54,972 bases of DNA from a virus. The translations under genes and the position numbers were made by a program. Shown in pieces: positions 11,188 to 37,318 of the stretch. The notes beneath the pieces are model-generated. The model saw only the letters and a program-made list of their open reading frames with translations, did no database searches and had not been told where the DNA came from. Positions within the stretch are counted from its first letter, which is position 1, and the number at the start of each line of letters is the position of its first letter. Location: the IMG/VR virus record IMGVR_UViG_3300023179_008764, positions 1-54,972 of that record; one strand, 5' to 3'.

Positions 11188-12000
11188 ATGCTAATGAAAG
11201 TTTCACACGAAACGCCTATATCTCTATTAGATTATTCTAAGCAATATAATGATTTTGACTACTGTCTGGTTCACTTATTAGATCAAAATGAAGGGTATAG
11301 AAACTTTTACACTAAATCTAGATCTGTTTGGGATAGAGAGCTTTTATTAGATAATTCTATTTTTGAACTAGGTAAAGCATTTGATAAGCATGAATTTTGG
11401 AAAAAAGTAAAAGAATTACAACCCAATATGTATATTGTACCGGATGTATTAGAAGATTATTACGGTACTGTTGATAGTTTTAAAGAATTTCAAAATTATA
11501 ACATGGATATTAAAAATACATTTTTAACTAAAGCGATAGGCGCTGTTCAGGGTAAAAATTGGCAAGAGTTAAAAGAGTGTTACAAATTTATGGCTGACAA
11601 TGCAGATATGATAGCTATTAGCTTTGATTTTAGTTATTACCAGATTACAGGTCAGGGATGGCATCATCTTGAGCGCTGGTGTTCAGGTCGTCAACGTTTT
11701 ATTACCGATTTAATAAATAATAATATATGGAGGTGGGATAAGCCGCATCACTTACTAGGATGCTCGCTTGCAAAAGAATTTAGATATTATGTCGATAGAA
11801 ACATTTACAATATTGTTTCTTGCGATACTAGCAATCCAATTGTTGCCGCTATTCATGGATTAAAGTACGACGCAGATTATGGCTTAGATACTAAACCATC
11901 AACAAAACTTGCTGATTTAATTGCACATGAATTTACAGAAGATCAGCTTGAACTTGTAAAATATAATACTACAATGTTTAAGAAGATTCTTCGTAGATGA
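11188..12000 (+). CDS. dpdA: DpdA-like DNA guanine transglycosylase (TGT-like TIM barrel)
   Basis: 270 residues. Pattern of a tRNA-guanine-transglycosylase-like barrel: LLDNSIFELG (53-62), VPDVLEDYYGTVD (84-96), AIGAVQGKNWQELKECY (117-132), HLLGCSL (188-194) and VSCDTSNPIVAAIHG (210-224). Asp55 or Asp86 and Asp213 are candidates for the catalytic Asp pair of TGTs. DpdA proteins exchange guanine in DNA for a 7-deazaguanine base after replication. Supporting context is strong: the gene is coupled by a 4-base overlap to a formyltransferase, and queF lies four genes downstream. It lacks the C-terminal zinc site of tRNA TGTs. The alternative, a tRNA-modifying TGT relative, is less likely for a phage with this gene set. 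An ATG six bases in is an alternative start. Confidence 0.7.
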   Translation: MLMKVSHETPISLLDYSKQYNDFDYCLVHLLDQNEGYRNFYTKSRSVWDRELLLDNSIFELGKAFDKHEFWKKVKELQPNMYIVPDVLEDYYGTVDSFKEFQNYNMDIKNTFLTKAIGAVQGKNWQELKECYKFMADNADMIAISFDFSYYQITGQGWHHLERWCSGRQRFITDLINNNIWRWDKPHHLLGCSLAKEFRYYVDRNIYNIVSCDTSNPIVAAIHGLKYDADYGLDTKPSTKLADLIAHEFTEDQLELVKYNTTMFKKILRR

Positions 12001-12566
12001 GACCTTGGATCACATTTTTTTCACAAACTGGAACAGAGATAGCTGCCTTGTGTCAGGCGCTAGGTAAATACCCTCATGGTATTGTAACTAATAAACAGAA
12101 CATGACAAATGTTAATAAAGATTTGGTTAATACGACGTCATTTCGCGAGCATAAATTAAATCAAACTTTTTGGCATATATTACCAGCTAAACCGTCGATT
12201 GATGACTATTTAAATACACTATCGTCTTTTGACAATCCTGTTATAACTCTTCACGGTTATTTAAGAATAATACCAAAAGTGGTTTGCGAAAAATACGAGA
12301 TATACAATTTACATCCTGGTTTAATTGACAAATACCCTTCATTGAAAGGGTTTAACCCTCAAGAAAGAGCATTTAGAGAAGGTTATAAACTCGCTGGGTG
12401 TGTTATACATAGGGTAATTCCTGATGTTGATGAGGGTGAAATTTTAATGAGTCAAGGAATATCAATAGAAAATAAAACTTTAAATGAAGTTTATGATTCT
12501 TTAAGAAATGTTGCTTTAGATCTCTGGAAAAGCTTCTTTACAGCATATAAAATACTCGATAAATGA
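11997..12566 (+). CDS. dpdN: PurN-like formyltransferase, candidate DpdN (dPreQ1 formyltransferase)
   Basis: 189 residues. Formyltransferase fold of the GAR-transformylase type. ITLHGYLRIIP (83-93) is followed by the catalytic NLHP motif (Asn104, His106) and GCVIHRVIPDVDEGEIL (134-150), whose Asp143/Asp145 matches the third catalytic residue. These enzymes move a formyl group from 10-formyl-tetrahydrofolate to an amine. Purine synthesis is an unlikely role for a lone phage copy. Its ATGA overlap with the dpdA-like gene and the presence of queF suggest it formylates the aminomethyl group of preQ1 in DNA, the activity predicted for DpdN. The substrate is inferred from context. Confidence 0.7.
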   Translation: MRPWITFFSQTGTEIAALCQALGKYPHGIVTNKQNMTNVNKDLVNTTSFREHKLNQTFWHILPAKPSIDDYLNTLSSFDNPVITLHGYLRIIPKVVCEKYEIYNLHPGLIDKYPSLKGFNPQERAFREGYKLAGCVIHRVIPDVDEGEILMSQGISIENKTLNEVYDSLRNVALDLWKSFFTAYKILDK

Positions 12567-12910
12567 ACCCCGAAGATTATATTAAAAGCGTAGAAGCCAC
12601 GTATCCTGAAACGTGTGAAGAGTTTAAAAAAATACAAAGAGAGCATTATGAGACTTTTTGTAAAAAGCAATTTGATTACGGTCCCCATAACATAAGCCTG
12701 GGCTCAGATTTACATAAAAAAGAAGATATTATTGCTTCAATATCTGCTATAGTGGTGAGATTAAACGATAAAATTCAGCGTTTAATTAATATGGTACTAC
12801 GTAAAAAGTCATTTGAAGCTGCAAATGAATCTATTTTTGATGCTTTTAGTGATACAGCTGTATACTGTATTATAGCTGAAGTAGTAAAAAGAAAGAAGTG
12901 GTGCAAATAA
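12563..12910 (+). CDS. Nmad1-like (DUF1599) nucleotide-modification-associated protein
   Basis: 115 residues. The pattern FCKKQFDYGP at about 32-41, a central RLNDKIQRLINM helix (67-78), SIFDAFSDTAVYCIIA (90-105) and a terminal KKW match what I remember of the DUF1599 / nucleotide modification associated domain 1 family, which is found in gene neighbourhoods for modified DNA bases. Biochemistry unknown. Overlaps the formyltransferase stop (ATGA) and touches the next gene (TAATG). Confidence 0.6.
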   Translation: MNPEDYIKSVEATYPETCEEFKKIQREHYETFCKKQFDYGPHNISLGSDLHKKEDIIASISAIVVRLNDKIQRLINMVLRKKSFEAANESIFDAFSDTAVYCIIAEVVKRKKWCK

Positions 12911-13050
12911 TGTCGCTTTTGAATATATTTCGTAATAAAAATGATGAGTTGCGTCGTCTTAAAGAAGAGAATGAAATACTAAAACATGAAGTATATGTCT
13001 TGAAAAATTTGCTTTTTAATTTAGAATTAGATGAATTAGCTAAAAAATGA
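12910..13050 (+). CDS. 46-residue coiled-coil peptide
   Basis: MSLLNIFRNKNDELRRLKEE begins the protein; residues 11-44 form a regular Leu/Ile heptad helix. Start overlaps the preceding stop (TAATG) and its TGA overlaps the ATG of the kinase (ATGA), so translation of all three is coupled. The short N-terminal LLNIF segment could touch membrane or partner. It may be an adaptor for its neighbours; function unknown. Confidence 0.6.
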   Translation: MSLLNIFRNKNDELRRLKEENEILKHEVYVLKNLLFNLELDELAKK

Positions 13051-13637
13051 ATATAACTTTTACAGGTCCGCAGTGTTCAGGCAAAACTACATTACTAAAA
13101 AGAATGAAGACAGAGAAAGGTATAATTGATAAGTTTTGGTATGTTGACGAGGTCACTAGATTAGTTAAAAGAGAGTGTTATGTAGATATTAATGAATCAG
13201 GTGCAAATGATATAACTCAGCTGTTAATTATTAACAAGGAACTAGAGAATCTGTTTAAATTTAAAAAAGAATTGTTATGGGATAGATGTCAAGGTGTTGT
13301 TCATGATAGATGTTTATTAGACGGTTTAGTATATACAGAATATTTTTATGATAAGAAATTAGTTAGTCAACATGTTGTGATGCAAGCTTTGCAGTATTGG
13401 CATAAATTTCATGAAAAATATGACATTATTTTTTATCCTAGTCCGCACGATGTACAGTTACAGGATGATGGGGAAAGAAGTACTAGTGTAGAATTTAGAA
13501 ATGCTATAATTGAAAAATATGAAAATTATTATCTTAATCAATTTCAGTGGAAAGATAGGGTAACAATTTTAAAAGGAACAGTTGAAGATCGAATGGAACA
13601 GATTAAAATTAAACTACATGAATACGGAATTAGATAA
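13047..13637 (+). CDS. P-loop NTPase, small nucleoside/nucleotide-kinase-like (AAA_28 type)
   Basis: 196 residues. Walker A GPQCSGKTT at 7-15, a WDRCQGVVHDRCLLD region at about 76-90 resembling the DR motif of NadR- and thymidylate-kinase-like enzymes, and a predicted Walker B strand YDIIFYPSP (129-137). The substrate is not deducible. Being fourth in an operon otherwise devoted to base modification, it may phosphorylate a nucleotide or folate-pathway intermediate, or salvage bases released by transglycosylation. Its C-terminus overlaps queF by 20 bases. Confidence 0.65.
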   Translation: MNITFTGPQCSGKTTLLKRMKTEKGIIDKFWYVDEVTRLVKRECYVDINESGANDITQLLIINKELENLFKFKKELLWDRCQGVVHDRCLLDGLVYTEYFYDKKLVSQHVVMQALQYWHKFHEKYDIIFYPSPHDVQLQDDGERSTSVEFRNAIIEKYENYYLNQFQWKDRVTILKGTVEDRMEQIKIKLHEYGIR

Positions 13638-14532
13638 TAGCAATATTTCAAAACATTTAGGCAAAGTAACCGGGTATAAGTCAACATACGACCCTACCCT
13701 ATTGGTACGCGAGCCAAGAATTAATAACCGTAAGCATTTAGGTATTACTGATGAAAGCGCACCGTTTAGTGGATATGATATTTGGAATGCATATGAAGTA
13801 TCTTGTTTGACCTCAGAAGGTATGCCTATTGCAGCGATTGCTAAAATAGTATATCCATGTAAGAACAAATATATTGTTGAATCAAAGTCAATTAAACTCT
13901 ATATGAATTCTTTTAATATGCAAAAGTTTAACGGTAATATTATTAAGGTTTTAAACGATCTTCAAACTACAATAGCGAAGGATCTTTCTAACCTACTTGA
14001 AACAGATGTAAAAGTGTATGTTAGGTTAACAAAAGCTGTAAGTGATGATTTATATTACCCACCAGTTTTTAATAATAAAGATTATCCGACATTAGAAAAT
14101 AATATTGATGTAACTTATATTCACGCACCTTCGTATACAGAAAATCCAAAATTATTAAGCGGTATAGAAATTTCTGAATCGAGAGTACAAAAATTTCATT
14201 CCGCTTTATTAAAGAGTAACTGTAGGGTAACTTCACAACCTGATTGGGGTGACGTTTATATTCATTATAAGGGTAAATACGAACTTAACCCTACATCTCT
14301 TTTGCAATATATTGTCTCTTTTAGAGATGAATGTCATTTTCATGAAGAAATTTGTGAGACAATTTACATGCGTTTATTTAAATTGTTTAATCCAGAAGAG
14401 CTTATTGTAAGCTGCTTGTATGTACGACGTGGTGGTATTGATATTAATCCAACGCGCGCTAGTAATTATAGCTTATTAGATAACGCTCTTATTGACGAGA
14501 CAAAGTACTTTACTAAGACAGTAAGACAATAA
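13618..14532 (+). CDS. queF: NADPH-dependent 7-cyano-7-deazaguanine (preQ0) reductase
   Basis: 304 residues from the ATG at 13618, the length of the two-lobed E. coli-type QueF; the frame extends further upstream inside the kinase gene but homology starts here (HLGKVTGYKSTYDPTLL). Reduces preQ0 to preQ1 with NADPH. Key residues: ESKSIKLYMNSF (88-99) for substrate binding, catalytic Cys202 in SNCRVTSQPDWG with Asp209 seven residues later, FRDECHFHEEICE (235-247), and RRGGIDINPTR (270-280). A complete active site. The product preQ1 is the base that the DpdA-like enzyme encoded upstream could insert in DNA. The stop directly abuts a convergent gene. Confidence 0.95.
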   Translation: MNTELDNSNISKHLGKVTGYKSTYDPTLLVREPRINNRKHLGITDESAPFSGYDIWNAYEVSCLTSEGMPIAAIAKIVYPCKNKYIVESKSIKLYMNSFNMQKFNGNIIKVLNDLQTTIAKDLSNLLETDVKVYVRLTKAVSDDLYYPPVFNNKDYPTLENNIDVTYIHAPSYTENPKLLSGIEISESRVQKFHSALLKSNCRVTSQPDWGDVYIHYKGKYELNPTSLLQYIVSFRDECHFHEEICETIYMRLFKLFNPEELIVSCLYVRRGGIDINPTRASNYSLLDNALIDETKYFTKTVRQ

Positions 14533-15015
14533 TTAGTCGTTTTGACGATTACGTCTTTGCTGTTCATACCAAACGCTGGTATTTTCTTCCCACCAGCCAC
14601 CTTCTAAAGGTATCATTTCGTCATTTACGTCAACGTATGGGGTAATTTCTAGAGTAGATGGGTCTATAAAATTACCCCATTCAGGTTCCCAGCTACCTGA
14701 AAGGCCTAACTGCTTAGTGGGAGGTGCCCATCTATTATTACCGTATAATGCTAATCCGCCATTTAGAGGGTCACCATCTTGCCCAACATACCATTCTCCA
14801 CTACCATCAAGAGGATATCCCCAAATATAAAAATCATTATTACCTATGTAACCTACTTCACCATATTGAGCATCCATTGTAAATAAAGATACAACTTCTT
14901 CTAAACCATTTAACTTAACCAAATACTGAGAATGTACAGGGTATGAATTAAAAGGATTGCTATTAAAATACTCATCAGAAGTTTTAGTTATGTACCAAGG
15001 TGTATAGATACTCAT
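14533..15015 (-). CDS. Trp/Gly-rich protein of unknown function, possible virion surface protein
   Basis: 160 residues, unusually rich in Trp, Tyr, Gly and Asn, with many turn-like motifs (NNDFYIWGYPLDGSGEW, GLSGSWEPEWG). Predicted all-beta. Coupled by ATGA to a 27-codon gene that has a late-type box, and lies just past the gp23 terminator, a position where T4-like phages may carry capsid decoration proteins. No family recognised. Confidence 0.65.
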   Translation of the reverse strand: MSIYTPWYITKTSDEYFNSNPFNSYPVHSQYLVKLNGLEEVVSLFTMDAQYGEVGYIGNNDFYIWGYPLDGSGEWYVGQDGDPLNGGLALYGNNRWAPPTKQLGLSGSWEPEWGNFIDPSTLEITPYVDVNDEMIPLEGGWWEENTSVWYEQQRRNRQND

Positions 15016-15095
15016 TCTTTATCGTCCTTCTTTTCTTCAGTAGGCTTGTATTCATCTATGCTTTTACGAACTTTATCTATACCTTTTTCACTCAT
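15012..15095 (-). CDS. 27-residue charged peptide
   Basis: A short gene starting MSEKGIDKVRKSIDEYK and ending in an acidic/lysine tail. Its ATG has AATAAATA at 5 bases and its TGA overlaps the ATG of the following gene, which is the pattern of real genes here. It may act as a leader that couples translation of the Trp-rich protein, or as a small peptide in its own right. Confidence 0.55.
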   Translation of the reverse strand: MSEKGIDKVRKSIDEYKPTEEKKDDKE

Positions 15096-15100
15096 ACAAA

Positions 15101-15108
15101 TATTTATT
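15101..15108 (-). promoter_or_regulatory. Late-type promoter box
   Basis: AATAAATA on the - strand, 5 bases before the 27-codon gene. It lies just beyond the gp23 terminator, so this gene pair is transcribed separately from gp23. Confidence 0.6.
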
Positions 15109-15140
15109 CTGTAAAGTCGTTTTTTTTATGTAAAACCAAA

Positions 15141-15170
15141 AAAAAAGGGCACCGCAAGATGCCCTTTTTT
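15141..15170. terminator. Strong bidirectional rho-independent terminator after gp23
   Basis: An 11-base perfect stem (AAAAAAGGGCA paired with TGCCCTTTTTT) and an 8-base loop. The A-run and T-run make it work on both strands. It lies 59 bases beyond the gp23 stop on the - strand. It is the only classical terminator I could see in the window. Confidence 0.9.
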
Positions 15171-15228
15171 AAAGATCCTAGGACTTACTAGGTGAAAATG
15201 ACTTTCTTTTAATCTCCTACTTCTATTT

Positions 15229-16734
15229 TTAGAAGTAGACCGATTGAGTGCCAGGCGTAAACGCAACACCGAGACCGGTCAAGATAATAACGTGGTAGTA
15301 AAGATTAGCACCAAAGATGTTATCTACAACTCCATAACGAGTTAATAGACCAACACGAGGAGCAAAATCATTAGGACCAATTGTTCTCTGGACCATTACC
15401 GGAATATACGGACAATAGATGATACCAGTGTCGTAGAATTCCGGACCCTTGTAACCAAGGAGAGCGTATTCGAGGCGAGATGTACGAGTTGTTCCGGCGG
15501 GGAACCCACCTGAACCGCCGTAGTTTCCTCCGGCGTTAGCTTCGTACTGAGCCTCTGTACGTGTGTCACGGTAAACGTTGAAACGGCCACCAATTGAGCC
15601 TACTTTTGCGACACCAACTGGCTGAGTGTTAACGTTGCCCTGGACTGGTACCCACTGAAACTCAGGGAGCATTTCCAGGATGGCGCAAACGCGAGGTGTA
15701 GCAACGATAAAGTTGGCAGCACCACGGCGATTACGAACAGCAATTCTGTTAGCCTCAACAATTAGTCTCTGATAGAAGTCGCGGTTGCGCTCTACGAGCC
15801 AGCGACCGTCTGCTGAAGCGGGCGACCAGACTGAGAAGCCTGTGCCAAGTCCAGCATTAAGGGCTGTCTGGATCATTCGGATGATCATTTCACGGTCGAT
15901 TTCGGCCTGCAACTCATATGACATAGCATTGGTGAGTTCGGTGTCGATATCGATTCCGTTCATGTTCTTAAGATCCTGTTCGAGTTCTACTGACCAACGA
16001 GCAGCGAGCCTACGAGTACCAGCTTCAACAGCTGTCTTCTCGAAGGATACAACTACCTGAGGGATCTTAGAAGATAACTCGAAGTTAGCTAAGAGCTGAG
16101 CAACGCCTCGGTCTTGTTCAGGTATTGCGAATGAAGCGTTACCAACTAGTGCATCTGATGATGTACCTGTGTAACGAGTATCCAAATACTGATAACCGAG
16201 TTCTGCGCCTGAAGACTGAGCCTGAGGACCACCAGCGGGGGTACCAGCGGCTAGAGAGCCGTCAGAACCTTTATCATTGGTTGAACCAAGCGATGTGCCT
16301 TCGTATCTATAACGGAGGGCAAAAGCAAGACCTACGGGACCGCTCATGGGCTGAACACCAACGATTTCGTTAGTGATCAACTCAGGGAACGTACGGCGGA
16401 TCATCGGAATGAGAATCTTGGGTAGACGTGTGTCGTTAGGAGCGTAAGCATTATCATTCTGTGAGGGGAACTGATTTCCATAAGCACCGACATTGGGCGA
16501 ACCAACGCCTGTGGCATTGAAAACAGAGCTTGAACCTCCAGCAATATTGCTAGCTTCGAAACACCACTTCTCTTGGTTTTCCAAAAGAATGGCGGTGTTT
16601 AAACGAGTGTGGTCATCTTCGATAGCGCGAACATTGTTCGATGTGTAATCCAATACTGGACCCCACTTTTCGAGCAATACTCTTGCGCGTGACTCATCGA
16701 TGTAAGCCTGTGTAGGACGAATTTGTTTTGACAT
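15229..16734 (-). CDS. 23: Major capsid protein precursor
   Basis: 501 residues, T4 gp23 family. Strong landmarks: YAPNDTRLPK (97-106), IPMIRRTFPELI (109-120), VGVQPMSGPVGLAFALRY just after. The prohead protease should cut after Glu60 (KWCFE/ASN), close to the T4 site at Glu65, removing the N-terminal propeptide. Codon use and GC content are clearly higher than in neighbours, as expected for the most highly expressed gene. Unlike most genes here it has a real leader with a Shine-Dalgarno-like AAGGA about 13 bases before the ATG. Last gene of the head operon, followed by a strong terminator. Confidence 0.97.
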   Translation of the reverse strand: MSKQIRPTQAYIDESRARVLLEKWGPVLDYTSNNVRAIEDDHTRLNTAILLENQEKWCFEASNIAGGSSSVFNATGVGSPNVGAYGNQFPSQNDNAYAPNDTRLPKILIPMIRRTFPELITNEIVGVQPMSGPVGLAFALRYRYEGTSLGSTNDKGSDGSLAAGTPAGGPQAQSSGAELGYQYLDTRYTGTSSDALVGNASFAIPEQDRGVAQLLANFELSSKIPQVVVSFEKTAVEAGTRRLAARWSVELEQDLKNMNGIDIDTELTNAMSYELQAEIDREMIIRMIQTALNAGLGTGFSVWSPASADGRWLVERNRDFYQRLIVEANRIAVRNRRGAANFIVATPRVCAILEMLPEFQWVPVQGNVNTQPVGVAKVGSIGGRFNVYRDTRTEAQYEANAGGNYGGSGGFPAGTTRTSRLEYALLGYKGPEFYDTGIIYCPYIPVMVQRTIGPNDFAPRVGLLTRYGVVDNIFGANLYYHVIILTGLGVAFTPGTQSVYF

Positions 16735-16786
16735 GTTAAGTTTTTTTCCTTTAATGTGATGTCGACCTTTAATTAATAAACTATTC

Positions 16787-16801: not shown

Positions 16802-16821
16802 CAACAAAAATCGAAAAAAAA

Positions 16822-27166: not shown

Positions 27167-28015
27167 TTATAATTTGTAGGATTCAAGAATTTTTAAAACT
27201 TGTTCAGACATTTTTTCTAGAGTAAAATAATTTTTATATACTTCTTTTCCTGTTTTTAGCATAGATTCTTTTTTGTCAGAAGAAATAGATTTAAGTATTG
27301 TTTTAATATTTTTTATGTCTTTACGCTCAATTAATACACAAAATTCACTCCAATTAACGTATTGTTTAAAAGGTAACCATTCTCTATCGTAAACATATAC
27401 TGGAATAGAGTTTAACTGAAACGTCTCATAAAGCCTAAAACTCGACGGCCCATACCCCCTAGGGCATAATGTAAATTCTGATTTAGCTGTAGTTGTAATA
27501 AAATTATTAAATTGCTCTTTAGATATCACCCTACTCCATTCAGACACATCCAATTTAAAATCACTATCATTTTTAAAAAAATCATAAATGTTTCTTCTGA
27601 TTTTATGCGTTAATGTACCTACAAACGAGCAAAAATATTCTTTTTGTAAGAGCGGTCTTTCTTCTAATGATGAGCATATTAATGGGAGTGGAATGCCTTT
27701 TCCATTACCACCAGCTTCAAAGCTAATTGTGTTTTGAGGTAAAATTTCTGCTACTGCATCATCCTGCTGCGATACGCAAAAATAATTTCCTTCTGGTAAA
27801 GCATTTAAATAGGGTTGAATTAAATGGCGATTTTCATTTTGGTTGTAAACGGCTGTCCAAAAAACAGGAATTAGTGTAAAGCTAGTTTGTTTAAAGCGTG
27901 CTTTATTTTTAAGATAAAATTCATAAAAATATTCTTCTAAATATAACCCTTTGTGGTAGGGTGGATAGGTAGGGTATCTTGCAGGTACCCTTAAATTTTT
28001 AAAATCGTAAGTCAT
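27167..28015 (-). CDS. Exostosin/GT47-like glycosyltransferase
   Basis: 282 residues. The segment FTLCPRGYGPSSFRLYETFQ (181-200) followed by IPVYV is the exostosin C-terminal sugar-nucleotide motif. The acceptor is unknown. Last gene in a five-gene glycosyltransferase cluster, overlapping the previous stop by four bases. Confidence 0.8.
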   Translation of the reverse strand: MTYDFKNLRVPARYPTYPPYHKGLYLEEYFYEFYLKNKARFKQTSFTLIPVFWTAVYNQNENRHLIQPYLNALPEGNYFCVSQQDDAVAEILPQNTISFEAGGNGKGIPLPLICSSLEERPLLQKEYFCSFVGTLTHKIRRNIYDFFKNDSDFKLDVSEWSRVISKEQFNNFITTTAKSEFTLCPRGYGPSSFRLYETFQLNSIPVYVYDREWLPFKQYVNWSEFCVLIERKDIKNIKTILKSISSDKKESMLKTGKEVYKNYFTLEKMSEQVLKILESYKL

Positions 28016-28665
28016 TTTTTTAGATTATTTTTTATCATTTTTAATAAAGCTAGTTTGTTTTTTGTCCCTTCTACATAGTTTGCGTGATGTAATAAAATAT
28101 TTTTTGGCGGAATAATGTTTGTATAATTGTCCCACACAAAAGTGCCGTTAGGGTTTTCAAAAAAATTACCTACTGTAAAGTATTTTTCTTTATTAAGTAA
28201 TCCGCTATTTAAATAGGGTCTAAAATAATTTAATGCTGCCTGGTCATTGACTAATGTTCGAAAATTAAGTCTTATTTTTTCCCATAGCGTTTTTGTCTTT
28301 TCATTAGCTTTGCAGGCAAAAAATCCCGCACATAAACTACCTCTGTCCTCCTGACATACTATATCTTTATCTTTAATTTGATTCGTAATATCCTCTAAAA
28401 AAGGTGAAAAGAACTGAACGTCACAATCTGAAAATATAAACCAATCACCCCAATTTTCTTCTATAGCGGCTAATATTACAGATATCTTATAATTCATTGT
28501 ATCTAGCCAGCCCGGTGACATAAACATCCCCTCTGACGTGGTTTGATCGTGATAGAGTACTCTAAGCTTAAGATCTGATTTACTGTAGATTTTTCTTAAA
28601 GTAGGCAGAAAAAAATCATTATAAAGCTCTTTATGACTATCGCTATAGTGCGAATATAATACCAT
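28012..28665 (-). CDS. Nucleotide-sugar transferase-like protein (GT-A, DxD)
   Basis: 217 residues. FIFSDCDVQFF (77-87) holds the DxD metal site (Asp80, Asp82), and a glycine/Cys-rich GSLCAGFFACK follows near residue 109, as in GT77-type and related GT-A enzymes. No membrane segment. Donor and acceptor are not deducible. Confidence 0.75.
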   Translation of the reverse strand: MVLYSHYSDSHKELYNDFFLPTLRKIYSKSDLKLRVLYHDQTTSEGMFMSPGWLDTMNYKISVILAAIEENWGDWFIFSDCDVQFFSPFLEDITNQIKDKDIVCQEDRGSLCAGFFACKANEKTKTLWEKIRLNFRTLVNDQAALNYFRPYLNSGLLNKEKYFTVGNFFENPNGTFVWDNYTNIIPPKNILLHHANYVEGTKNKLALLKMIKNNLKK

Positions 28666-28671
28666 CCGTAT

Positions 28672-28677
28672 ATTATA
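28672..28677 (-). promoter_or_regulatory. -10 box
   Basis: TATAAT on the - strand six bases before the ATG at 28665; it overlaps the stop codon of the gene upstream. Confidence 0.4.
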
Positions 28678-29431
28678 CTAAATGCTTTTTGTGTTGCAAC
28701 AGTTTTCGCATTAAATGTAGTTCTTTTAATCTTGTATCTCTAACAGTACTATTATAATAAAAACATTTAAATAATCGTTTATTAAGACATGCAATCTTTA
28801 CTAAATTTTGTTTAAGAAATTGACTACGCAAATAAAGATCACCTTCATTCTTTGTGCGTAATTCTGAGTATGTTTTGTCGCATAACTCCAAAAGAAAATT
28901 TATCTTAGCTACATACGGTCTGTTAATTATGTCTAATAAATTCGTATCTCTAAATACGGATGTAGGGTATAGAGACAATATTAAATTTTTTGAGATGTGA
29001 TGGGTTTTTTGAGCATTATGATTTATTTCACCTGATTTAATGCATAATGATAAAAAAGTGATATCTTTATTTTTCTTATATAATTCTAACACTTCATCTA
29101 TAAATTTTGTATTTTTTGTTACACATGCAGCATCGTCAGGCAAATAAACAATATCTGTAAATCCCTCTTCTTGTAATTTTAACAAATGAGAAGTGAAAAC
29201 TAAATTAAATGATTCAGCTTTATATAACAAAAATTCTACGTTTTTTAAATTTTTTTTAATTTTTAAAGCAACATTTCTGCAATATTCTCTATCTAATACA
29301 TTATGAAAACAAAAAAATCTTTTGTTTAGTTTATTTAAAAAATAAGCTAATGAAGCGTCTTGGGAGTAAAAATTTGAAACCTCTTCTCTACCTGTTGTAT
29401 GGGTAGGCGTAAAATTAGCTAACTTTTTCAA
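28673..29431 (-). CDS. Putative GT-A-fold glycosyltransferase
   Basis: 252 residues. DIVYLPDDAACV (93-104) has the DD metal-binding pattern of GT-A enzymes, and the general layout (N-terminal Rossmann-like part, helical basic C-terminus) matches its neighbours. The assignment rests on that motif and on context. Overlaps the upstream gene by 17 bases. Confidence 0.6.
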   Translation of the reverse strand: MKKLANFTPTHTTGREEVSNFYSQDASLAYFLNKLNKRFFCFHNVLDREYCRNVALKIKKNLKNVEFLLYKAESFNLVFTSHLLKLQEEGFTDIVYLPDDAACVTKNTKFIDEVLELYKKNKDITFLSLCIKSGEINHNAQKTHHISKNLILSLYPTSVFRDTNLLDIINRPYVAKINFLLELCDKTYSELRTKNEGDLYLRSQFLKQNLVKIACLNKRLFKCFYYNSTVRDTRLKELHLMRKLLQHKKHLV

Positions 29432-30182
29432 TAGTACCTCCTCGAGTATCTACTTTTGACCAATCGGGTTTCATATTTAAATATTTACTTAATCTATTAA
29501 CTGCGTCTATACGGTCATCTACTAGATCATACCATAATTTATCGCTTATTTTGTCGTGATTATCTGAGAGCATTCTATCTGCAGTGTTATCTTTCTTACG
29601 ACCACCATAAACCCAGTGATTATGTTGAATATGAATATCTCTTCTATATTTTACGCGTTTAAAAGTATTAAACGTTTGATACATCCATTGATCTGACCAG
29701 TTAATTAAAAACTCTTCTTTTGTAAGGTATCCTAATGTTTCGTAATATTTTCTATGTAAAAAAGCGTTAACACAAATCTCATCTACCTCGCGATGGCCGT
29801 CATAACAATGAACCAGCTTAATATTATCTTTAGGGCAATTGTTTGCATTAAATTCTTCTAAGATCTTTTCATCCCAATTAGACGTCTTAAAAATCATATC
29901 ATCACCTATGTAGCCAAATATTTCAGCTTCTGTGTTTTTAGCGAGTATATTCCATATACGATTAATACCAATAAACTTGCCATTATTTTTAATATCAACA
30001 ATACGTACACAAGGAATAGCTGCAGCTATTTTGTAAGTAATTTCTCTGGTAGGATCATCCTCATCGATACCAAATACGATTTCAACATTATTAATATCCT
30101 TTACGGTAGTAATAATGGAACTGATTAACGTTAATTTAAGATTTAACCGCTCTCTGCTTGGAATTAGAAGACTTATTTTCAT
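29415..30182 (-). CDS. GT2-family glycosyltransferase
   Basis: 255 residues. A canonical GT2 start (ISLLIPSRERLNLKLTL), FGIDEDDP at 37-44 and FGYIGDDMIF (89-98) with the DD metal site. The C-terminal HNHWVYGGRKKDNTADR region is a probable acceptor-side motif. Its start lies 47 bases inside the upstream gene. Confidence 0.8.
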   Translation of the reverse strand: MKISLLIPSRERLNLKLTLISSIITTVKDINNVEIVFGIDEDDPTREITYKIAAAIPCVRIVDIKNNGKFIGINRIWNILAKNTEAEIFGYIGDDMIFKTSNWDEKILEEFNANNCPKDNIKLVHCYDGHREVDEICVNAFLHRKYYETLGYLTKEEFLINWSDQWMYQTFNTFKRVKYRRDIHIQHNHWVYGGRKKDNTADRMLSDNHDKISDKLWYDLVDDRIDAVNRLSKYLNMKPDWSKVDTRGGTIEKVS

Positions 30183-30993
30183 ATTTCTTTCTTATTTTCT
30201 TAAGAATTTTTAACACCTCATCTTTTGAGGTATCAGGCACTGCGTTTTGCCAAGCCGGTTGAAACCCGTGCTTGTTTTGAAACAATCTAGCCCCATTAAC
30301 AATATTTTGTTTCCAATCAGCTCTAGGTCTAATTGAACTGCTATATTCCGAACACTCTACTTCTTCTAGGTATTCATAACTTTTTTCTATATCAGGAAAA
30401 TTCCAATAAGGCGTTCCGTACCCTGCTTTAAAGATCCGATAATCATGATCTACATGCTCAAAAGCGTTAGTATATTCCTCATCTAATAACCCTACCTCTT
30501 TTAAAACATTTTTAGAATAATAACAAAAAGCCCCAACGCTATGTGCATTAATAGCTATTTTTACTGCACCGTAATCCACGACATATCTTGGTGATGGTGT
30601 ACCTTTCGAAACATTACCGCGATTAGCTGGCCCATGATAACCAAAATTAAAATGCTGTATACCGGTAATATTTCTAGCTTTTATATACTCATTAAAAATT
30701 TCGGGATTCTTTACTACTATATCATCCTCTACTATAAAAATATGATCGCAATCTTCTTCAAGTAAATATCTTAAAAGTATGTTTTTTGATTTACCAACCC
30801 CCAAGTTAACTTTATTATGAAAATATTCAAAATTCTTTTCTTTTTTAAGTTTATCAATATCTGCAAAATCTGAACCATCATTGACTACCGCTAATGTATA
30901 CTCTTTAGGAATTGATCTAAAAGACTTTATAAAGAAACTAGGCCTATTACATGTAACTATACCAACACCAATTTTATTGCTATTTACACTCAT
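30136..30993 (-). CDS. GT2-family glycosyltransferase
   Basis: 285 residues. GVGIVTCNRPSFF (9-21), VVNDGS (37-41), and FIVEDDIVVK (86-95) with the ExD/DD metal site. FEHVDHDYRIFKAG near residue 194 fits the catalytic base region. First gene of the cluster, with AT-rich divergent promoter region shared with the + strand fibre-like gene. Confidence 0.85.
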   Translation of the reverse strand: MSVNSNKIGVGIVTCNRPSFFIKSFRSIPKEYTLAVVNDGSDFADIDKLKKEKNFEYFHNKVNLGVGKSKNILLRYLLEEDCDHIFIVEDDIVVKNPEIFNEYIKARNITGIQHFNFGYHGPANRGNVSKGTPSPRYVVDYGAVKIAINAHSVGAFCYYSKNVLKEVGLLDEEYTNAFEHVDHDYRIFKAGYGTPYWNFPDIEKSYEYLEEVECSEYSSSIRPRADWKQNIVNGARLFQNKHGFQPAWQNAVPDTSKDEVLKILKKIRKKYENKSSNSKQRAVKS

Positions 30994-31010
30994 TGATTTA
31001 TATATTTTAA

Positions 31011-31018: not shown

Positions 31019-31024
31019 TAATAA

Positions 31025-31762: not shown

Positions 31763-31971
31763 ACGTGAAATAAAAGAGCTTTATTAATACGAGCTAAAGC
31801 TTTACGAGGATGATGACCTTCATCAATTAACCTTTTATATTCGTTTTTAAAAGCTTTTACAAAATCTTCAGATAATTTAAAATTTTTTGGATAAAATTCT
31901 CTTTTTACTGTACGAATACTTCTAAAATTTTCTAGTAATGATTCGTACTTTTTGTTAAAGTCTGCCTTCAT
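31756..31971 (-). CDS. Small basic protein of unknown function
   Basis: 71 residues from the ATG at 31971, chosen over upstream in-frame ATGs because of the ATTAAATA box five bases away and because it then starts just after the kinase stop. Helical, Lys/Arg-rich, starting MKADFNKKYESLLEN. No family recognised. Confidence 0.55.
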   Translation of the reverse strand: MKADFNKKYESLLENFRSIRTVKREFYPKNFKLSEDFVKAFKNEYKRLIDEGHHPRKALARINKALLFHVQ

Positions 31972-31975
31972 ACTA

Positions 31976-32716
31976 TTATTTAATCCCGCGGATAATTTGA
32001 TTCTTAAATTTTTGCTCTTCTTGTTCATCATAAAGTGCACGCTTTTGTGCTCTAAGAAGAGTTTCCATCTGGTTTAAATTTTCAGGATTTAACACACTAG
32101 AATCATTATCTATTACACTACCATCTTTATTAATGTATAGCTTTATAATTTCGACACGTTCTTCTGGAGTACCAAAGACTTCTATCATCGGAGGCCTATC
32201 ATCTTTTGCCATAAAAGGGCAAACACCTTTACTCATTAAATTGTAAGATATTGCTTTAAAAATATTATCAATTTCTTTAATAAACGTTTCGTCTATTTCT
32301 CTATTCTCTTTTAGTTCAACCTTTACCGGAGCCGCCTTTGTAATAGGTATAAAGAAAATTATATCAATTGCTTTCATGCTTTCTTGTACAAGAGGAATAC
32401 ATTTATTAATAAATTCCTTATCAATATCAGATGACTTTTTATCCTCAGCCCATAATGAATAAACCAAATTGTCTAAAGGGCATCTATCAAAAATAATATT
32501 ATCTGTTTTATCAGTTTTTTGAATATCATCAATAAGACAGTTAAGAATTTTCCATTGACTTTCTTGATCTACAAACTTATTAATTTTTAATTTATCATTT
32601 TTTAAAGCTTTGCGGTATGATTCTTCCGATCTTTTATAATTTGGCCAATTTTTTAAAAAATCATTTACTAAGGTAGACTTACCTTGACATGCTGTGCCTG
32701 AAATTGCTATTCTCAT
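31976..32716 (-). CDS. P-loop kinase-like NTPase (AAA_28 type)
   Basis: 246 residues. Walker A GTACQGKST (7-15), IIFDRCPLDNLVY (about 77-89) with the DR motif, and IDIIFFIPI as Walker B strand. It is a paralogue-like relative of the kinase in the base-modification operon, although the two are not close in sequence. The C-terminal 50 residues are charged and helical. Downstream of queE and a coupled 54-residue gene, so a role in nucleotide supply is possible. The substrate is unknown. Confidence 0.65.
   Translation of the reverse strand: MRIAISGTACQGKSTLVNDFLKNWPNYKRSEESYRKALKNDKLKINKFVDQESQWKILNCLIDDIQKTDKTDNIIFDRCPLDNLVYSLWAEDKKSSDIDKEFINKCIPLVQESMKAIDIIFFIPITKAAPVKVELKENREIDETFIKEIDNIFKAISYNLMSKGVCPFMAKDDRPPMIEVFGTPEERVEIIKLYINKDGSVIDNDSSVLNPENLNQMETLLRAQKRALYDEQEEQKFKNQIIRGIK
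31977..31984 (-). promoter_or_regulatory. Late-type promoter box (variant)
   Basis: ATTAAATA on the - strand five bases before the ATG at 31971, overlapping the kinase stop codon. Confidence 0.4.
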
Positions 32717-32877
32717 TTTTTTAATTTATTTATAAAGCTTCCAACAATAATATACACTTTGTCATTATCTAATCCTTTTCCGTCTGTAAGCTCATTAATC
32801 CATTGTTCGACAGAAAGCTTATCCAAATCTTCTAATTTTTCTTCTTCAGGTCCTTTAACAAATTCTTTAAAATTCAT
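32713..32877 (-). CDS. 54-residue acidic protein
   Basis: Starts MNFKEFVKGPEEEK and continues as a charged helix with LSVEQWINELTDGKG. Its ATG overlaps the queE stop (ATGA) and its TGA overlaps the kinase ATG (ATGA), so it is wedged and coupled on both sides. The first residues resemble a prohead-targeting peptide. Function unknown. Confidence 0.6.
   Translation of the reverse strand: MNFKEFVKGPEEEKLEDLDKLSVEQWINELTDGKGLDNDKVYIIVGSFINKLKK
32727..32734 (-). promoter_or_regulatory. Late-type promoter box
   Basis: TATAAATA on the - strand ten bases before the kinase ATG at 32716, inside the end of the 54-residue gene. Confidence 0.4.
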
Positions 32878-33614
32878 ACTTTTAAAGCTTTATCCCAAAT
32901 TACAAGCTGAAGCCTCGGGCTAAATTTAAGATTATGTCTCTTGCATAAATCAGCAACAAATACAGCTTTTTCAACATGCTCAGCTCGGCTACCGCAACAA
33001 GGCATTAACCATACACGCTCTTTAGGTACTTTAATAGATGGTTCACTAATATACTTTTCAAACACTTCTAAAAGATCATTTTCATCGTTAATAACAAATT
33101 TAAACCCAGAATTATTCTTAACATGCCATTTTAATACTTCTGGCTTATATCTCTTTTCAATAGGATCTCCATTATTAGAAAGCTTAGGTGAAGTAGTAAA
33201 TGTAGCTTTCCAATCCAACCATTGCTGATCAGGTAAAATAGTAGCGTTAGTTTCAAAATCTATTCTCGGTACAAAACCAAATCTAAAAATAAATTGGTCT
33301 ACTAATTCAAGTAAAGCTTTCTGCTGAATAAGAGGCTCACCACCCGTAATCTTCCAGATAGCACCGTCTTTTAAGTAGCAATTATAACTATTTTGTGACA
33401 TATATTCAAAGACATCATCAAAAGTCATTTTATTTTTAACAGACCAGCTAATAAAACTATCACATCCATTAGGAGAATCTGCAGAAGCAAACCCCTTACA
33501 GGTCAAATTGCACATTGACAGTCGCATAAACACAGAAGGTTGACCAACATACTCGCCTTCCCCCTCTATTGTGTAAAATATTTTATCGTCACTAAGAAAA
33601 ATAGTATTTTCCAT
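32874..33614 (-). CDS. queE: 7-carboxy-7-deazaguanine synthase
   Basis: 246 residues. Radical-SAM enzyme that turns 6-carboxytetrahydropterin into 7-carboxy-7-deazaguanine. FYTIEGEGEYVGQPSVFMRL (13-32) is the QueE substrate loop, and KITGGEP (88-94) the SAM motif. The cluster cysteines are Cys35, Cys39 and Cys51, i.e. C-x3-C-x11-C, an insertion relative to the usual CxxxCxxC. The pathway partners QueD and FolE lie within 4 kb. Confidence 0.9.
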   Translation of the reverse strand: MENTIFLSDDKIFYTIEGEGEYVGQPSVFMRLSMCNLTCKGFASADSPNGCDSFISWSVKNKMTFDDVFEYMSQNSYNCYLKDGAIWKITGGEPLIQQKALLELVDQFIFRFGFVPRIDFETNATILPDQQWLDWKATFTTSPKLSNNGDPIEKRYKPEVLKWHVKNNSGFKFVINDENDLLEVFEKYISEPSIKVPKERVWLMPCCGSRAEHVEKAVFVADLCKRHNLKFSPRLQLVIWDKALKV

Positions 33615-33620
33615 ATAGTT

Positions 33621-33626
33621 AGTATA
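33621..33626 (-). promoter_or_regulatory. -10 box for queE
   Basis: TATACT on the - strand six bases before the queE ATG. Confidence 0.45.
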
Positions 33627-33628
33627 TA

Positions 33629-33835
33629 TTATTTCTTGTAATCATCAACTAGCTTTTTAATTAAACTTTCAGCAATATCTACCATTTCTTTATTATGAGG
33701 GCTATCTGAATATTTCTTTTCTGTGCCGACATATCTATAATACTGATCTCTGGTAATTCTTTTAAATTCACCCAATACATGCCATAAATTGTACATCTCT
33801 TTTTCATTTAACTCTGCATTAATTTTATAATTCAT
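33629..33835 (-). CDS. Small protein of unknown function
   Basis: 68 residues, helical and charged, Tyr-rich centre (DQYYRYVGTEKKY). Directly upstream of queE with its own TATAAT box. No family recognised. Confidence 0.5.
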   Translation of the reverse strand: MNYKINAELNEKEMYNLWHVLGEFKRITRDQYYRYVGTEKKYSDSPHNKEMVDIAESLIKKLVDDYKK

Positions 33836-33843
33836 TTTTTTAT

Positions 33844-33849
33844 ATTATA
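33844..33849 (-). promoter_or_regulatory. -10 box
   Basis: TATAAT on the - strand eight bases before the ATG at 33835, within a 52-base divergent promoter region shared with phoH. Confidence 0.4.
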
Positions 33850-33872
33850 ATTGACAAAACGACTTAATCAAG

Positions 33873-33880
33873 AATAAATA
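33873..33880 (+). promoter_or_regulatory. Promoter box for phoH
   Basis: AATAAATA seven bases before the phoH ATG. A TTGACA at 33851-33856 lies 17 bases before ATAAAT, so it can also be read as a sigma70-type promoter, the best -35/-10 pair noticed in the window. Confidence 0.5.
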
Positions 33881-33887
33881 TTAATAG

Positions 33888-34628
33888 ATGTCTAAGAAAG
33901 ATAGACAGCTTAAAAAAGCTGCCAAAGATGATAGTAAACTAATTAAATCTGATATTTTTTTAAATTTTCAAATTAATCAAAAATATCACTTTAATGATCA
34001 TCATAAAGCTTTTGTAGAGACTGCGTTCAGAGATGATTCGCATATAATCTTTTGTGATGGACCTGCTGGCTCCGCTAAAACGTATTGTGCCGCTTATGTA
34101 GCATTAACACTTTTAAAGGAAAAGAAGATTGATGAAATAGTATATATTAGAAGTATTGTAGAATCTGCTGCTAGAAAGCTAGGAAGTTTACCTGGTGAAG
34201 TAGATGATAAATTTAAGCCATGGAGCATTCCAATGGTAGAAAAATGTGATGAATTAGCTGGCAAACAAGTAACAAACATGTTGTTTGAAAGTGAATACCT
34301 TAAGTGCGTACCTGTTAACTTTTTGAGAGGAACAACATTTACTAATAGTGTTGTAATTGTAGACGAAGCACAAAACTTAGAACATAGCGAGTTAGTTACT
34401 ATTATGACAAGATATGGTAAAAATTGTAAACTATTTGTAATAGGTGATTCTTTTCAATCAGATATTCATAAAGCAGATTTTAGAAATTTATTAAAAGCTT
34501 TTGATAGCAACGAAAGTAAAACTAACGGAATACATGTAAATCATTTCGTAGAGGATGATATAGTAAGAAGTAAATTACTTAAGTTCATCGTAAAAGTTCT
34601 TACGGGGATCAAGTCTAAGCAAATCTAA
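33888..34628 (+). CDS. phoH: PhoH-like ATPase
   Basis: 246 residues. Walker A GPAGSAKT (58-65), the PhoH-specific YIRSIVESAARKLGSLPGE (about 85-103), Walker B VIVDEAQN (about 156-163) and IGDSFQSD. PhoH proteins are cytosolic ATPases very common in marine phages, with a proposed RNA-helicase or nucleotide-stress role. The 3' end overlaps a convergent gene by 54 bases. Confidence 0.92.
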   Translation: MSKKDRQLKKAAKDDSKLIKSDIFLNFQINQKYHFNDHHKAFVETAFRDDSHIIFCDGPAGSAKTYCAAYVALTLLKEKKIDEIVYIRSIVESAARKLGSLPGEVDDKFKPWSIPMVEKCDELAGKQVTNMLFESEYLKCVPVNFLRGTTFTNSVVIVDEAQNLEHSELVTIMTRYGKNCKLFVIGDSFQSDIHKADFRNLLKAFDSNESKTNGIHVNHFVEDDIVRSKLLKFIVKVLTGIKSKQI

Positions 34629-34769
34629 TAAAGATTTTTTATTTTTTACATAATAATCGTATATACTAGCAATATTATCACCATCTTGACTATTTGTTTT
34701 TAAATCTTTATTTTTAAAATAATCGGAAATCTCTCCACCATAAAGCTGTTGCTTTATTTCAGGATTCAT
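34575..34769 (-). CDS. Small protein of unknown function coupled to queD
   Basis: 64 residues. Its ATG overlaps the queD stop by one base (TAATG), which argues that it is translated. It ends 54 bases inside the convergent phoH gene. Helical, charged; no family recognised. Confidence 0.5.
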   Translation of the reverse strand: MNPEIKQQLYGGEISDYFKNKDLKTNSQDGDNIASIYDYYVKNKKSLLDLLRLDPRKNFYDELK

Positions 34770-35455
34770 TAAACACCCCAGCTTGTACCGCCAAAAAGAT
34801 TTGAAAAGCCTGTAGTTACTTTATTACCTACCGGTGCCGGTTTTGGGCCTTGCATAGGAGGATTCTTCAAAACCTGCGCAAGATTTACACCCGTCTCTTC
34901 TCTAACCTCATCCATAAAATCAAAAACTTGCTTTGCTCTATTTAATTCAGGTACATTAGATGGTGCTTGTACAGTAGTTGACTCTGTATTACCAGGTGCT
35001 TGTACAGTTACAATTGTAGAGCTTTCAACAATGGCTGAGTTTTTATCATGCTCCCAAACTTCAACCTTTTCAACCCAACATCTACCATTAGTTAGATCGC
35101 GAATAAATGTATCTGAAACTTTAAGGCACCATTCAGCTGTTTTTTCGATACCCACCCCATCTTCCATAATTCGTAAATCACAACCACGAGCTGCGTGTAA
35201 TGATTTAAATCCTTCTAACAACGGGTCATCTCCCGCAATGCATAATGTATGGTCAAATTGTTTTTCGAGTATTTTCTTTAAATCCTTTAACCCACCAAAA
35301 TCTACAACCCAATTCTTATCATCCAATGTATTGCAACCAAACCAGAATTTAGCTACCAATCTATATCCGTGAATAAACTTACAATGACTATCAGCTCTCC
35401 ATTGTCTAAATGCACAACTACCCAACTCAATAATTTTAGTACTAGTATACTTCAT
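34769..35455 (-). CDS. queD: 6-carboxytetrahydropterin synthase (QueD/PTPS family), extended
   Basis: 228 residues, about 75 longer than usual. Converts dihydroneopterin triphosphate to 6-carboxytetrahydropterin for QueE. SCAFRQWRADSHCKFIHGYRL (13-33) corresponds to the catalytic Cys/zinc region: Cys25 then His29, but the normal HGH is HGY. NWVVDFGGLK (48-57), FDHTL (67-71) and the Glu of EVWEHDKNSA are intact. The C-terminal extension from about residue 150 has two copies of TVQAP and ends in a Gly-rich tail. The nearest TATAAT lies 25 bases upstream with a purine-rich leader, an exception to the leaderless rule. Confidence 0.85.
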   Translation of the reverse strand: MKYTSTKIIELGSCAFRQWRADSHCKFIHGYRLVAKFWFGCNTLDDKNWVVDFGGLKDLKKILEKQFDHTLCIAGDDPLLEGFKSLHAARGCDLRIMEDGVGIEKTAEWCLKVSDTFIRDLTNGRCWVEKVEVWEHDKNSAIVESSTIVTVQAPGNTESTTVQAPSNVPELNRAKQVFDFMDEVREETGVNLAQVLKNPPMQGPKPAPVGNKVTTGFSNLFGGTSWGV

Positions 35456-35480
35456 AGATCTTCTTTTCTAATATCTATAT

Positions 35481-35486
35481 ATTATA
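35481..35486 (-). promoter_or_regulatory. -10 box for queD
   Basis: TATAAT on the - strand 25 bases before the queD ATG. The implied 18-base leader has an AGAAAAGAAGA stretch that could bind ribosomes. Confidence 0.35.
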
Positions 35487-35513
35487 ATCAAAACTAGTTA
35501 AAAAATCAACTGT

Positions 35514-35705
35514 TTATTTTATTATTCCGTTAATATTATTTTCAGTAAGATACTTTTCTGCTTCTTCTCTTAATTTAAAAACAGCCGGAAAGCCAGTAGG
35601 CAAAATATGTACATCTTTAGTACTATTATCGTAAATGTAATAACCAGGCTTTTGCAGCTTTTTTAATTTTTCAGGAAGCTGATTTGTTTTGAATTGCTTT
35701 AACAT
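35514..35705 (-). CDS. Small protein of unknown function
   Basis: 63 residues from the ATG at 35705, which is preceded by a Shine-Dalgarno-like AGGTGAGG; a GTG four codons earlier is possible. Sequence YYIYDNSTKDVHILPTG suggests a small beta hairpin domain. Overlaps the end of the upstream basic protein. No family named. Confidence 0.5.
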   Translation of the reverse strand: MLKQFKTNQLPEKLKKLQKPGYYIYDNSTKDVHILPTGFPAVFKLREEAEKYLTENNINGIIK

Positions 35706-35892
35706 TATAAACCTCACCTAGTACTTTATTGACAATGTCGTCAAAGCTTTCTTTTTTAAGAAATTTTTTAATTTCTTTTTTAGGCATTTTTTTTGCAACT
35801 TTTTTAGCTGCTCCTTTAACACCTTTTTGATGTTTTTTAGCGCCCATAACTGCACCAAAAAATTTTCTTTGTTTTTCAGATTTTGCAGGCAT
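35671..35892 (-). CDS. Small basic DUF3008-like protein
   Basis: 73 residues, starting MPAKSEKQRKFFGAV, a start shared by a family of short Lys-rich phage and bacterial proteins (MPAKSKAQQRF-type, DUF3008 as I recall). Highly basic through KKHQKGVKGAAKKVAKK, so nucleic-acid binding in the virion is plausible. The start at 35892 is fixed by a late box five bases away; the frame is open for 24 codons further upstream. Confidence 0.65.
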   Translation of the reverse strand: MPAKSEKQRKFFGAVMGAKKHQKGVKGAAKKVAKKMPKKEIKKFLKKESFDDIVNKVLGEVYNVKAIQNKSAS

Positions 35893-35896
35893 GTTA

Positions 35897-36616
35897 TTAT
35901 TTATTTTTTTTACTTGGAATTCTACGAACTTTTTGCCATTCGCTTCCATATCTCTTACTATCACGAAAACGATCTCTCTTCCAATCCGGTCTTAATTTGT
36001 AATTATGCCCCCATCTAATTACTGGGTCTAAAACTCTACCTACATTACCACCTATGACAACATCATGCGCTGCATCAACAGCTTTAAAAGGTGCTTGTAC
36101 TGCACCTTTTGCCAATTCCGCTGTCTTACCGATAGCTCTACGAGCTCCATGAGCTAGCTTGCTAATTAAACCTTCGTTCAGCGGACCATCATGCATAATA
36201 AACGATTTATAAAGGTTAGATAGGTTTTCATCTGTAAATCCTTTTTGTTTTAAAAATGTCTCAATATCACTTAAATTGTTCGAACTTGCAACATTACATA
36301 GAATAGGATCACCCTCTTGTGTACCGCATCTTAACATTTCGCTTAGAATAAAACTTTTTAATTCTTCAAAAGTTTCTAATTTATCGTCTTCAGCTATAGC
36401 TTCAATAAATTCTAGGGGTATTTCTTCTATAGGCATATCTGGTGAAAGAACTAAAATCTTTAGCTTACCTACACCTTCAGCAAGGATATAACCCTCATAA
36501 CCATCTACTTTAGATAGATCTTGTTCTGCGCTTATCTTAGCTGGATCTACTTTAATTCTTATTCTTTTTAAAGCTGTCTTTTGAAGGCTTTCTTCTATTA
36601 TCTGACTAAATTTCAC
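35897..36616 (-). CDS. Protein of unknown function with prohead-targeting-like N-terminus
   Basis: 239 residues from GTG 36616, fixed by a CATAAATA box five bases away (the frame runs further upstream across folE's promoter). The first residues KFSQIIEESLQK resemble a T4 capsid-targeting sequence. The middle is acidic and helical; a Gly/Ala amphipathic stretch LISKLAHGARRAIGKTAELAKGA-like segment lies near 165-190, and the C-terminus is strongly basic (RPDWKRDRFRDSKRYG). Possibly an internal virion protein. Confidence 0.55.
   Translation of the reverse strand: MKFSQIIEESLQKTALKRIRIKVDPAKISAEQDLSKVDGYEGYILAEGVGKLKILVLSPDMPIEEIPLEFIEAIAEDDKLETFEELKSFILSEMLRCGTQEGDPILCNVASSNNLSDIETFLKQKGFTDENLSNLYKSFIMHDGPLNEGLISKLAHGARRAIGKTAELAKGAVQAPFKAVDAAHDVVIGGNVGRVLDPVIRWGHNYKLRPDWKRDRFRDSKRYGSEWQKVRRIPSKKNK
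35898..35905 (-). promoter_or_regulatory. Late-type promoter box
   Basis: AATAAATA on the - strand five bases before the ATG at 35892. Confidence 0.6.
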
Positions 36617-36621
36617 GTAAT

Positions 36622-36629
36622 TATTTATG
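36622..36629 (-). promoter_or_regulatory. Late-type promoter box
   Basis: CATAAATA on the - strand five bases before the GTG at 36616. Confidence 0.6.
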
Positions 36630-36651
36630 TTGATCTCGTTATATCTTATCA

Positions 36652-36657
36652 TATAAT
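36652..36657 (+). promoter_or_regulatory. -10 box for folE
   Basis: TATAAT seven bases before the folE ATG, inside a 48-base divergent promoter region. Confidence 0.5.
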
Positions 36658-36664
36658 AGCTATT

Positions 36665-37318
36665 ATGTTTAAAAAGAAATTGGCTTTCGCGAATCACAAT
36701 CATCCTCATACACAAGAAGAAACACAGCAAATAATAGAAAAAGCTGCTAAAGCTTACGAGGCGTATATGGATGCTCTAGGGTATGATTGGAGAAACGATC
36801 CTAATAGTAATAATACACCACATCGTGTTGCTAAAGCTTTTGTAGAAGACTTTGCATGGGGTTGCTATAGTAACCCACCAAAAGTAACTGCTTTTGATAA
36901 TGTAGATAAGTATGATGGGATAGTAGCACAAACAAATATTAAGCTTACTTCGCTTTGCTCACATCATCATGCACCCTTTATGGGGTTTGCTCATGTTGCT
37001 TACATACCTGCTAAGGATGGTAAGGTTATTGGTCTTAGTAAGCTTAATCGTATTGTTGATTGGTTTGCCCGCCGTCCTCAGGTTCAAGAAAACCTTACAA
37101 TGCAAATTCACAAGTACATTGATGAAGTCTGTTTAAAGAATAAGGGGGTGGCTGTTATGATTGAAGCAGCACATACATGTTGTTCGAATCGTGGTATAAG
37201 ACATGATTCTACAATGCGTACTGCGAGAATGTCCGGTGCATTTTTAGATGATAAAGACAATTCTCGTAATGAGTTTTATAAGTTTATTGAATTTGCGCAA
37301 AATAGAAAACTTATCTAA
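36665..37318 (+). CDS. folE: GTP cyclohydrolase I
   Basis: 217 residues from the ATG at 36665. Converts GTP to dihydroneopterin triphosphate, the first step of both folate and 7-deazaguanine synthesis. Zinc and catalytic residues are intact: Cys98 and His101 in LCSHHHAPF, and CC at 172-173 in AAHTCCSNRGI. GLSKLNRIVDWFARRPQVQE (123-142) is the family signature. With queD and queE nearby on the other strand, the 7-deazaguanine role is favoured. It may also feed the folate used by the formyltransferase. Confidence 0.95.
   Translation: MFKKKLAFANHNHPHTQEETQQIIEKAAKAYEAYMDALGYDWRNDPNSNNTPHRVAKAFVEDFAWGCYSNPPKVTAFDNVDKYDGIVAQTNIKLTSLCSHHHAPFMGFAHVAYIPAKDGKVIGLSKLNRIVDWFARRPQVQENLTMQIHKYIDEVCLKNKGVAVMIEAAHTCCSNRGIRHDSTMRTARMSGAFLDDKDNSRNEFYKFIEFAQNRKLI

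Follow-up and report, generated by a model that had tools for sequence, protein, structure and literature searches.

Genes for a predicted formylated 7-deazaguanine DNA base in an uncultured T4-like phage

Which base is made by a phage that combines genes of 7-deazaguanine synthesis with a putative DNA guanine transglycosylase and a formyltransferase, and where does that base end up? The question is raised by the virus record IMGVR_UViG_3300023179_008764, analysed here over its whole 54,972 nucleotides (the window). Its source is a T4-like phage, with 33-34% identity to cyanophages in the portal and major capsid proteins. Five plus-strand genes at 11188-14532 form a cassette encoding a DpdA-like barrel protein, a formyltransferase, a protein of 115 amino acids (aa), a P-loop kinase and QueF. 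An initial annotation had proposed a pathway for a formylated 7-deazaguanine in DNA, and this interpretation is supported by the tRNA-guanine transglycosylase (TGT) fold of the barrel protein, the operon linkage, the catalytic residues and the absence of purine-pathway genes. The phage quite probably makes its own 7-deazaguanine and writes a formylated form of it into its DNA.

The barrel protein and the formyltransferase

Sequence searches of Pfam, NCBIfam and the PDB gave no match for the barrel protein (11188-12000, plus strand, 270 aa). Its AlphaFold model, built from 55 relatives, has a mean pLDDT of 94.8, and in a Foldseek comparison with the PDB the 50 matches listed were all TGT (E-values 2.1e-8 to 2e-7, the best with a TM-score of 0.68 on the query). 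This places the protein in the TGT/DpdA fold to which it had first been assigned. The nearest viral models in BFVD were those of Cellulophaga phage phiST (TM-score 0.86) and, more weakly, of Vibrio phage nt-1 (E-value 8e-5), for which a DpdA2 is known (PMC6884629). Three aspartates, D55, D86 and D213, are invariant in the 55 relatives and are proposed, solely on the basis of motifs and a weak hhalign match, to be the equivalents of the catalytic and base-binding aspartates of TGT. The cysteines of the TGT zinc subdomain are absent, with no cysteine after residue 212, and E. coli TGT is longer by about 100 residues. The closest phage records are those of Campylobacter CP220-type and Flavobacterium immuto phages (41-45% identity), although on the DpdA tree CP220 is a long branch whose position is uncertain. 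A DpdA-type DNA transglycosylase is the most fitting identity for the barrel protein, with insertion into DNA as its predicted activity; in phage CAjan, DpdA is essential for 7-deazaguanine insertion (PMC6884629). Since CP220-type phages, whose DpdA is 44% identical, replace all of their deoxyguanosine (dG) (100% by dADG in CP220 and CPt10; PMC8306585), near-complete or full replacement of G is plausible, by analogy, in the phage of the window as well.

The formyltransferase named in the initial annotation (11997-12566, plus strand, 189 aa) is indeed present: it matches PF00551 at 1.5e-17, its AlphaFold model (pLDDT 95.8) has PurN as top fold match (E-value 2e-11), followed by FMT and sugar N-formyltransferases, and the PurN catalytic triad (N104, H106 and D145) is invariant in 56 relatives. 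It consists of one small domain and has no additional nucleic-acid-binding part. The phosphate loop for glycinamide ribonucleotide (GAR), SGNGSN in PurN, reads SQTGTE in the alignment, whereas E. coli PurN keeps it and P-SSM2 PurN has it as SGNGTN. Against the PurN equivalog model TIGR00639 the protein scores 56.7 bits, far below the cut-off of 150.1, and PF00551 gives 148 bits for P-SSM2 PurN versus 43-66 bits for formyltransferases of the cassette type. Moreover, no AIRS_C domain (PurM/PurL) was found in 17 records with the gene, namely the window, 15 IMG/VR relatives and Flavobacterium phage vB_FspM_immuto_2-6A (MW353175, immuto below), whereas the P-SSM2 control, with its true PurN, has one. 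The loss of the loop, the low TIGR00639 score and the lack of PurM/PurL indicate that the substrate is probably not GAR, and PurN was discarded as the identity of the enzyme on the same three grounds. The neighbouring QueF suggests that the formyl acceptor is the aminomethyl group of preQ1. An enzyme that formylates preQ1 is the interpretation we prefer, favoured by the operon linkage, the catalytic residues and the absent purine-pathway genes.

Supply of preQ1 and the position of QueC

QueF (13618-14532, plus strand, 304 aa, with ATG 13618 as the better start), the NADPH-dependent reductase of preQ0 to preQ1, matches PF14819 (1e-34), PF14489 (7e-22) and TIGR03138 (1.5e-76; 257.6 bits, under the cut-off of 293.45). 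Aligned to E. coli QueF, it retains the nucleophilic cysteine, the aspartate and the NADPH motif ESKSxKLY (SNCRVTSQPDW and VESKSIKLY). A QueF-type gene is associated with dPreQ1 in phages Dp-1 and HVTV-1 (PMC6884629).

The other synthesis genes stand at 32.9-37.3 kb, 18-24 kb from the cassette. QueE (32874-33614, minus strand), a radical S-adenosylmethionine (SAM) 7-carboxy-7-deazaguanine synthase of phage type, matches phrog_2076 (1.7e-43) and keeps three cysteines in a spread-out motif. The QueD-like 6-carboxytetrahydropterin synthase (34769-35455, minus strand) matches PF01242 (3.6e-15) and phrog_2389 (2.8e-34), and its catalytic Cys, Asp-His and Glu are kept in the alignment. FolE, a GTP cyclohydrolase I (36665-37318, plus strand, better start ATG 36665), matches PF01227 (6.7e-49) and is 95% identical to the copy in the syntenic relative G003; its zinc and substrate site reads CSHH and AAHTCC, which we take to be the same as in E. 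coli FolE.

All four enzymes that the initial annotation had listed are present, with QueD only near-intact. Its placement of the genes in one operon held for DpdA, the formyltransferase and QueF, with two genes it had left unnamed lying between them (12563-12910 and 13047-13637), and failed for the distant QueE, QueD and FolE. Overlaps of 4 nt join the first three cassette genes (11997/12000 and 12563/12566), the kinase gene is preceded by a gap of 136 nt, and QueF overlaps the kinase by 20 nt.

QueC was not found in the window, as had been noted before, and its supply had been left to the host or another part of the genome. Of 20 large relatives, 15 have QueC. Collinear with G003, the window breaks off after the first 717 nt of uvsX (RecA-like; 5' part at 54256-54972, plus strand, cut by the contig end), and the next reading frame after uvsX is QueC in 8 of 8 relatives checked. 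From this adjacency QueC would be expected a few hundred bases beyond the contig end; the final 1.5 kb of the window show no homology to QueC, as a cut ahead of that gene would produce. Most likely, judging from gene order, QueC is phage-encoded and lies just past the end of the contig; host supply was dropped as an explanation because QueC following uvsX in relatives makes it unnecessary. Phage immuto also has its own QueC.

In the proposed pathway FolE, QueD, QueE and the off-contig phage QueC would make preQ0 from GTP, and QueF would reduce it to preQ1. After replication, DpdA would insert the 7-deazaguanine into the DNA in place of guanine, and the formyltransferase would move a formyl group from 10-formyl-tetrahydrofolate onto the aminomethyl nitrogen, either of the free base or in DNA. 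The base predicted to result, 7-(formylamino)methyl-7-deazaguanine, might occupy most or even all G positions and could shield the phage DNA from restriction enzymes. Escape from restriction is probably the role of the modification, by analogy with phages of measured 7-deazaguanine DNA, which are resistant to restriction (PMC6884629).

Linkage in relatives and competing explanations

The conservation of the cassette was followed in 153 non-redundant loci, of which the 101 with at least 5 kb downstream were used for counts; because patterns derived from this DpdA subfamily served to collect them, the frequencies are not unbiased. DpdA, formyltransferase, kinase and QueF occur together in 62 of the 101 loci, and one further locus has the last three (63 in total). 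DpdA, kinase and QueF without the formyltransferase are found in 33 loci, and the remainder comprises DpdA with kinase (three), DpdA with formyltransferase (one, L081) and DpdA alone (one). The order DpdA-formyltransferase-kinase-QueF is kept in L001, L141, L151 and L244 despite rearrangement of the other que genes. On the window's own branch of the DpdA tree the formyltransferase is present in 57 of 57 rows; over the tree the formyltransferase label needs at least six changes, though the starred branches force only one.

The four matches in bacterial bins are distant. On the Rhodobacteraceae-bin contig of L244, QueE, QueD, FolE, DpdA, formyltransferase, kinase, QueF and QueC lie within about 8.3 kb. 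Other cassettes contain insertions recognised by eye: asparagine-synthase-like and tryptophan-halogenase-like genes between DpdA and formyltransferase (L007, 2620-5582) and a radical-SAM-like protein of the SPASM/twitch type between kinase and QueF (L005, 13437-14762; L019, 12545-13888).

Several points weigh against a formylated preQ1 base in this DNA. QueF accompanies 63 of 64 loci with the formyltransferase and 33 of 37 without it; because it is almost always present, the statistical dependence between the two is weak, and linkage alone to a gene that is near-universal beside this DpdA is no proof of dependence on preQ1. Two loci, L081 and L247, have DpdA and the formyltransferase with no QueF within 7-10 kb downstream. 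QueD is changed at two of the three canonical zinc histidine positions (HGH to HGY, and no histidine of AHRL); the changes are common to close phage relatives, and since several phages keep this altered form, the enzyme is probably functional. What the sequences show are the identities of the genes, the folds, the catalytic residues, the conserved linkage and the place of QueC in relatives, whereas the chemistry is one that we infer: the substrate of the formyltransferase, the order of insertion and formylation, the extent of replacement and the protection.

Three other explanations were considered. The same pathway could operate with a formyltransferase that uses another amine, or genes beyond the window could turn its product into yet another derivative. 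The fragmentary contig and the two cassette proteins without an assigned role (the 115-aa protein and the kinase) leave room for this, but QueF and the formyltransferase share one cassette and preQ1 offers the obvious primary amine, which makes the explanation unlikely. It is very improbable that the formyltransferase is an ordinary PurN which boosts purine synthesis, the phage DNA ending as dPreQ1. Cyanophages do carry PurN, and the PF00551 match, the PurN-like fold, the PHROG label PurN and the annotation of the immuto copy as phosphoribosylglycinamide formyltransferase agree with such a role, whereas the lost phosphate loop, the TIGR00639 score and the absence of PurM/PurL described above, as well as the overlap of the formyltransferase start with the DpdA stop, contradict it. 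That the genes raise queuosine in host tRNA, with the barrel protein acting as a TGT, is hardly credible, for although the fold is that of TGT, preQ1 is the normal TGT substrate and an action on tRNA has been proposed for que-bearing phages that lack DpdA (PMC6884629), the protein is too short and lacks the zinc-subdomain cysteines, its relatives occur in phages with measured 7-deazaguanine DNA (CP220, PMC8306585), and an amine capped by a formyl group should no longer allow conversion to Q.

Cassette partners and related phage systems

Beside the formylated 7-deazaguanine pathway itself, the constant kinase and a GMP reductase seem to be the less explained parts of the system. The P-loop kinase (13047-13637, plus strand; AAA_28, PF13521 at 1e-16, with distant Tmk and NadR matches) is present in 99 of the 101 loci and is a near-constant partner of this DpdA subfamily. 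The same kinase accompanies DpdA in CP220-type phages without an adjacent QueF or formyltransferase, and a tblastn search of 50,697 phage records with it gave matches in Campylobacter phages only. Its counterpart in L002 lies at 12819-13361. A related second kinase (AAA_28/dNK-like, 31976-32716) adjoins QueE. For the conserved 115-aa protein (12563-12910, plus strand; profile match to phrog_1485) no PDB relative was found.

A GuaC-like GMP reductase is encoded at 7500-8450 on the plus strand (NF003966 at 5.4e-96, under the model cut-off, and synteny). In about 30 relatives its gene lies inside the cassette, often between the formyltransferase and the 115-aa gene (L003, 11372-12346). From this placement it is possibly part of the system and perhaps handles the guanine freed by DpdA. 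A wider guanine-exchange programme can be imagined, in which DpdA would replace practically every G by formyl-preQ1, the nucleotide pools and the released guanine would be managed by the constant kinase together with the GMP reductase and the 115-aa protein, and this DpdA subfamily would need a dedicated, so far undescribed kinase; we regard it as rather doubtful. Elsewhere in the window, a cluster of glycosyltransferase-like genes (GT47 exostosin, Nucleotid_trans and GT2) occupies 27167-30993 on the minus strand.

The combination of DpdA with a DpdN-like formyltransferase is a pathway kind already known, and the window is a further member of it. The base fdPreQ1 and the proteins DpdN and DpdA3 were reportedly described by Cui et al. 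in 2023; DpdN is said to have been predicted to formylate dPreQ1, and DpdA3 is said to allow complete guanine replacement. The window places the predicted pathway among T4-like water phages of a large group that has yet to be cultured. The chemistry can be measured in a cultured stand-in with the same cassette, phage immuto, and sister loci with DpdA, kinase and QueF and without the formyltransferase provide a natural contrast for probing what the formyl group does.

Among known systems, immuto shares the order DpdA, formyltransferase, kinase, QueF and has its own FolE, QueD and QueE besides QueC; identity to the window is 41% for DpdA, 43% for the formyltransferase and 46% for QueF. It differs in that its que genes are confined to about 18 kb of a single strand, a 115-aa cassette gene is absent and the host is Flavobacterium, and the T4-like lineage of the window is different from its own. 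Campylobacter phage CP220 has a DpdA that is 44-45% identical and is followed by the same P-loop kinase, whereas no QueF or formyltransferase was found adjacent to it and its product is dADG. Phages 9g, CAjan, nt-1 and Dp-1 share the FolE-QueD-QueE-QueC pathway and a TGT-related DNA transglycosylase, but their DpdA resembles that of the window only distantly, by fold (nt-1, E-value 8e-5), and no formyltransferase has been described in them (PMC6884629).

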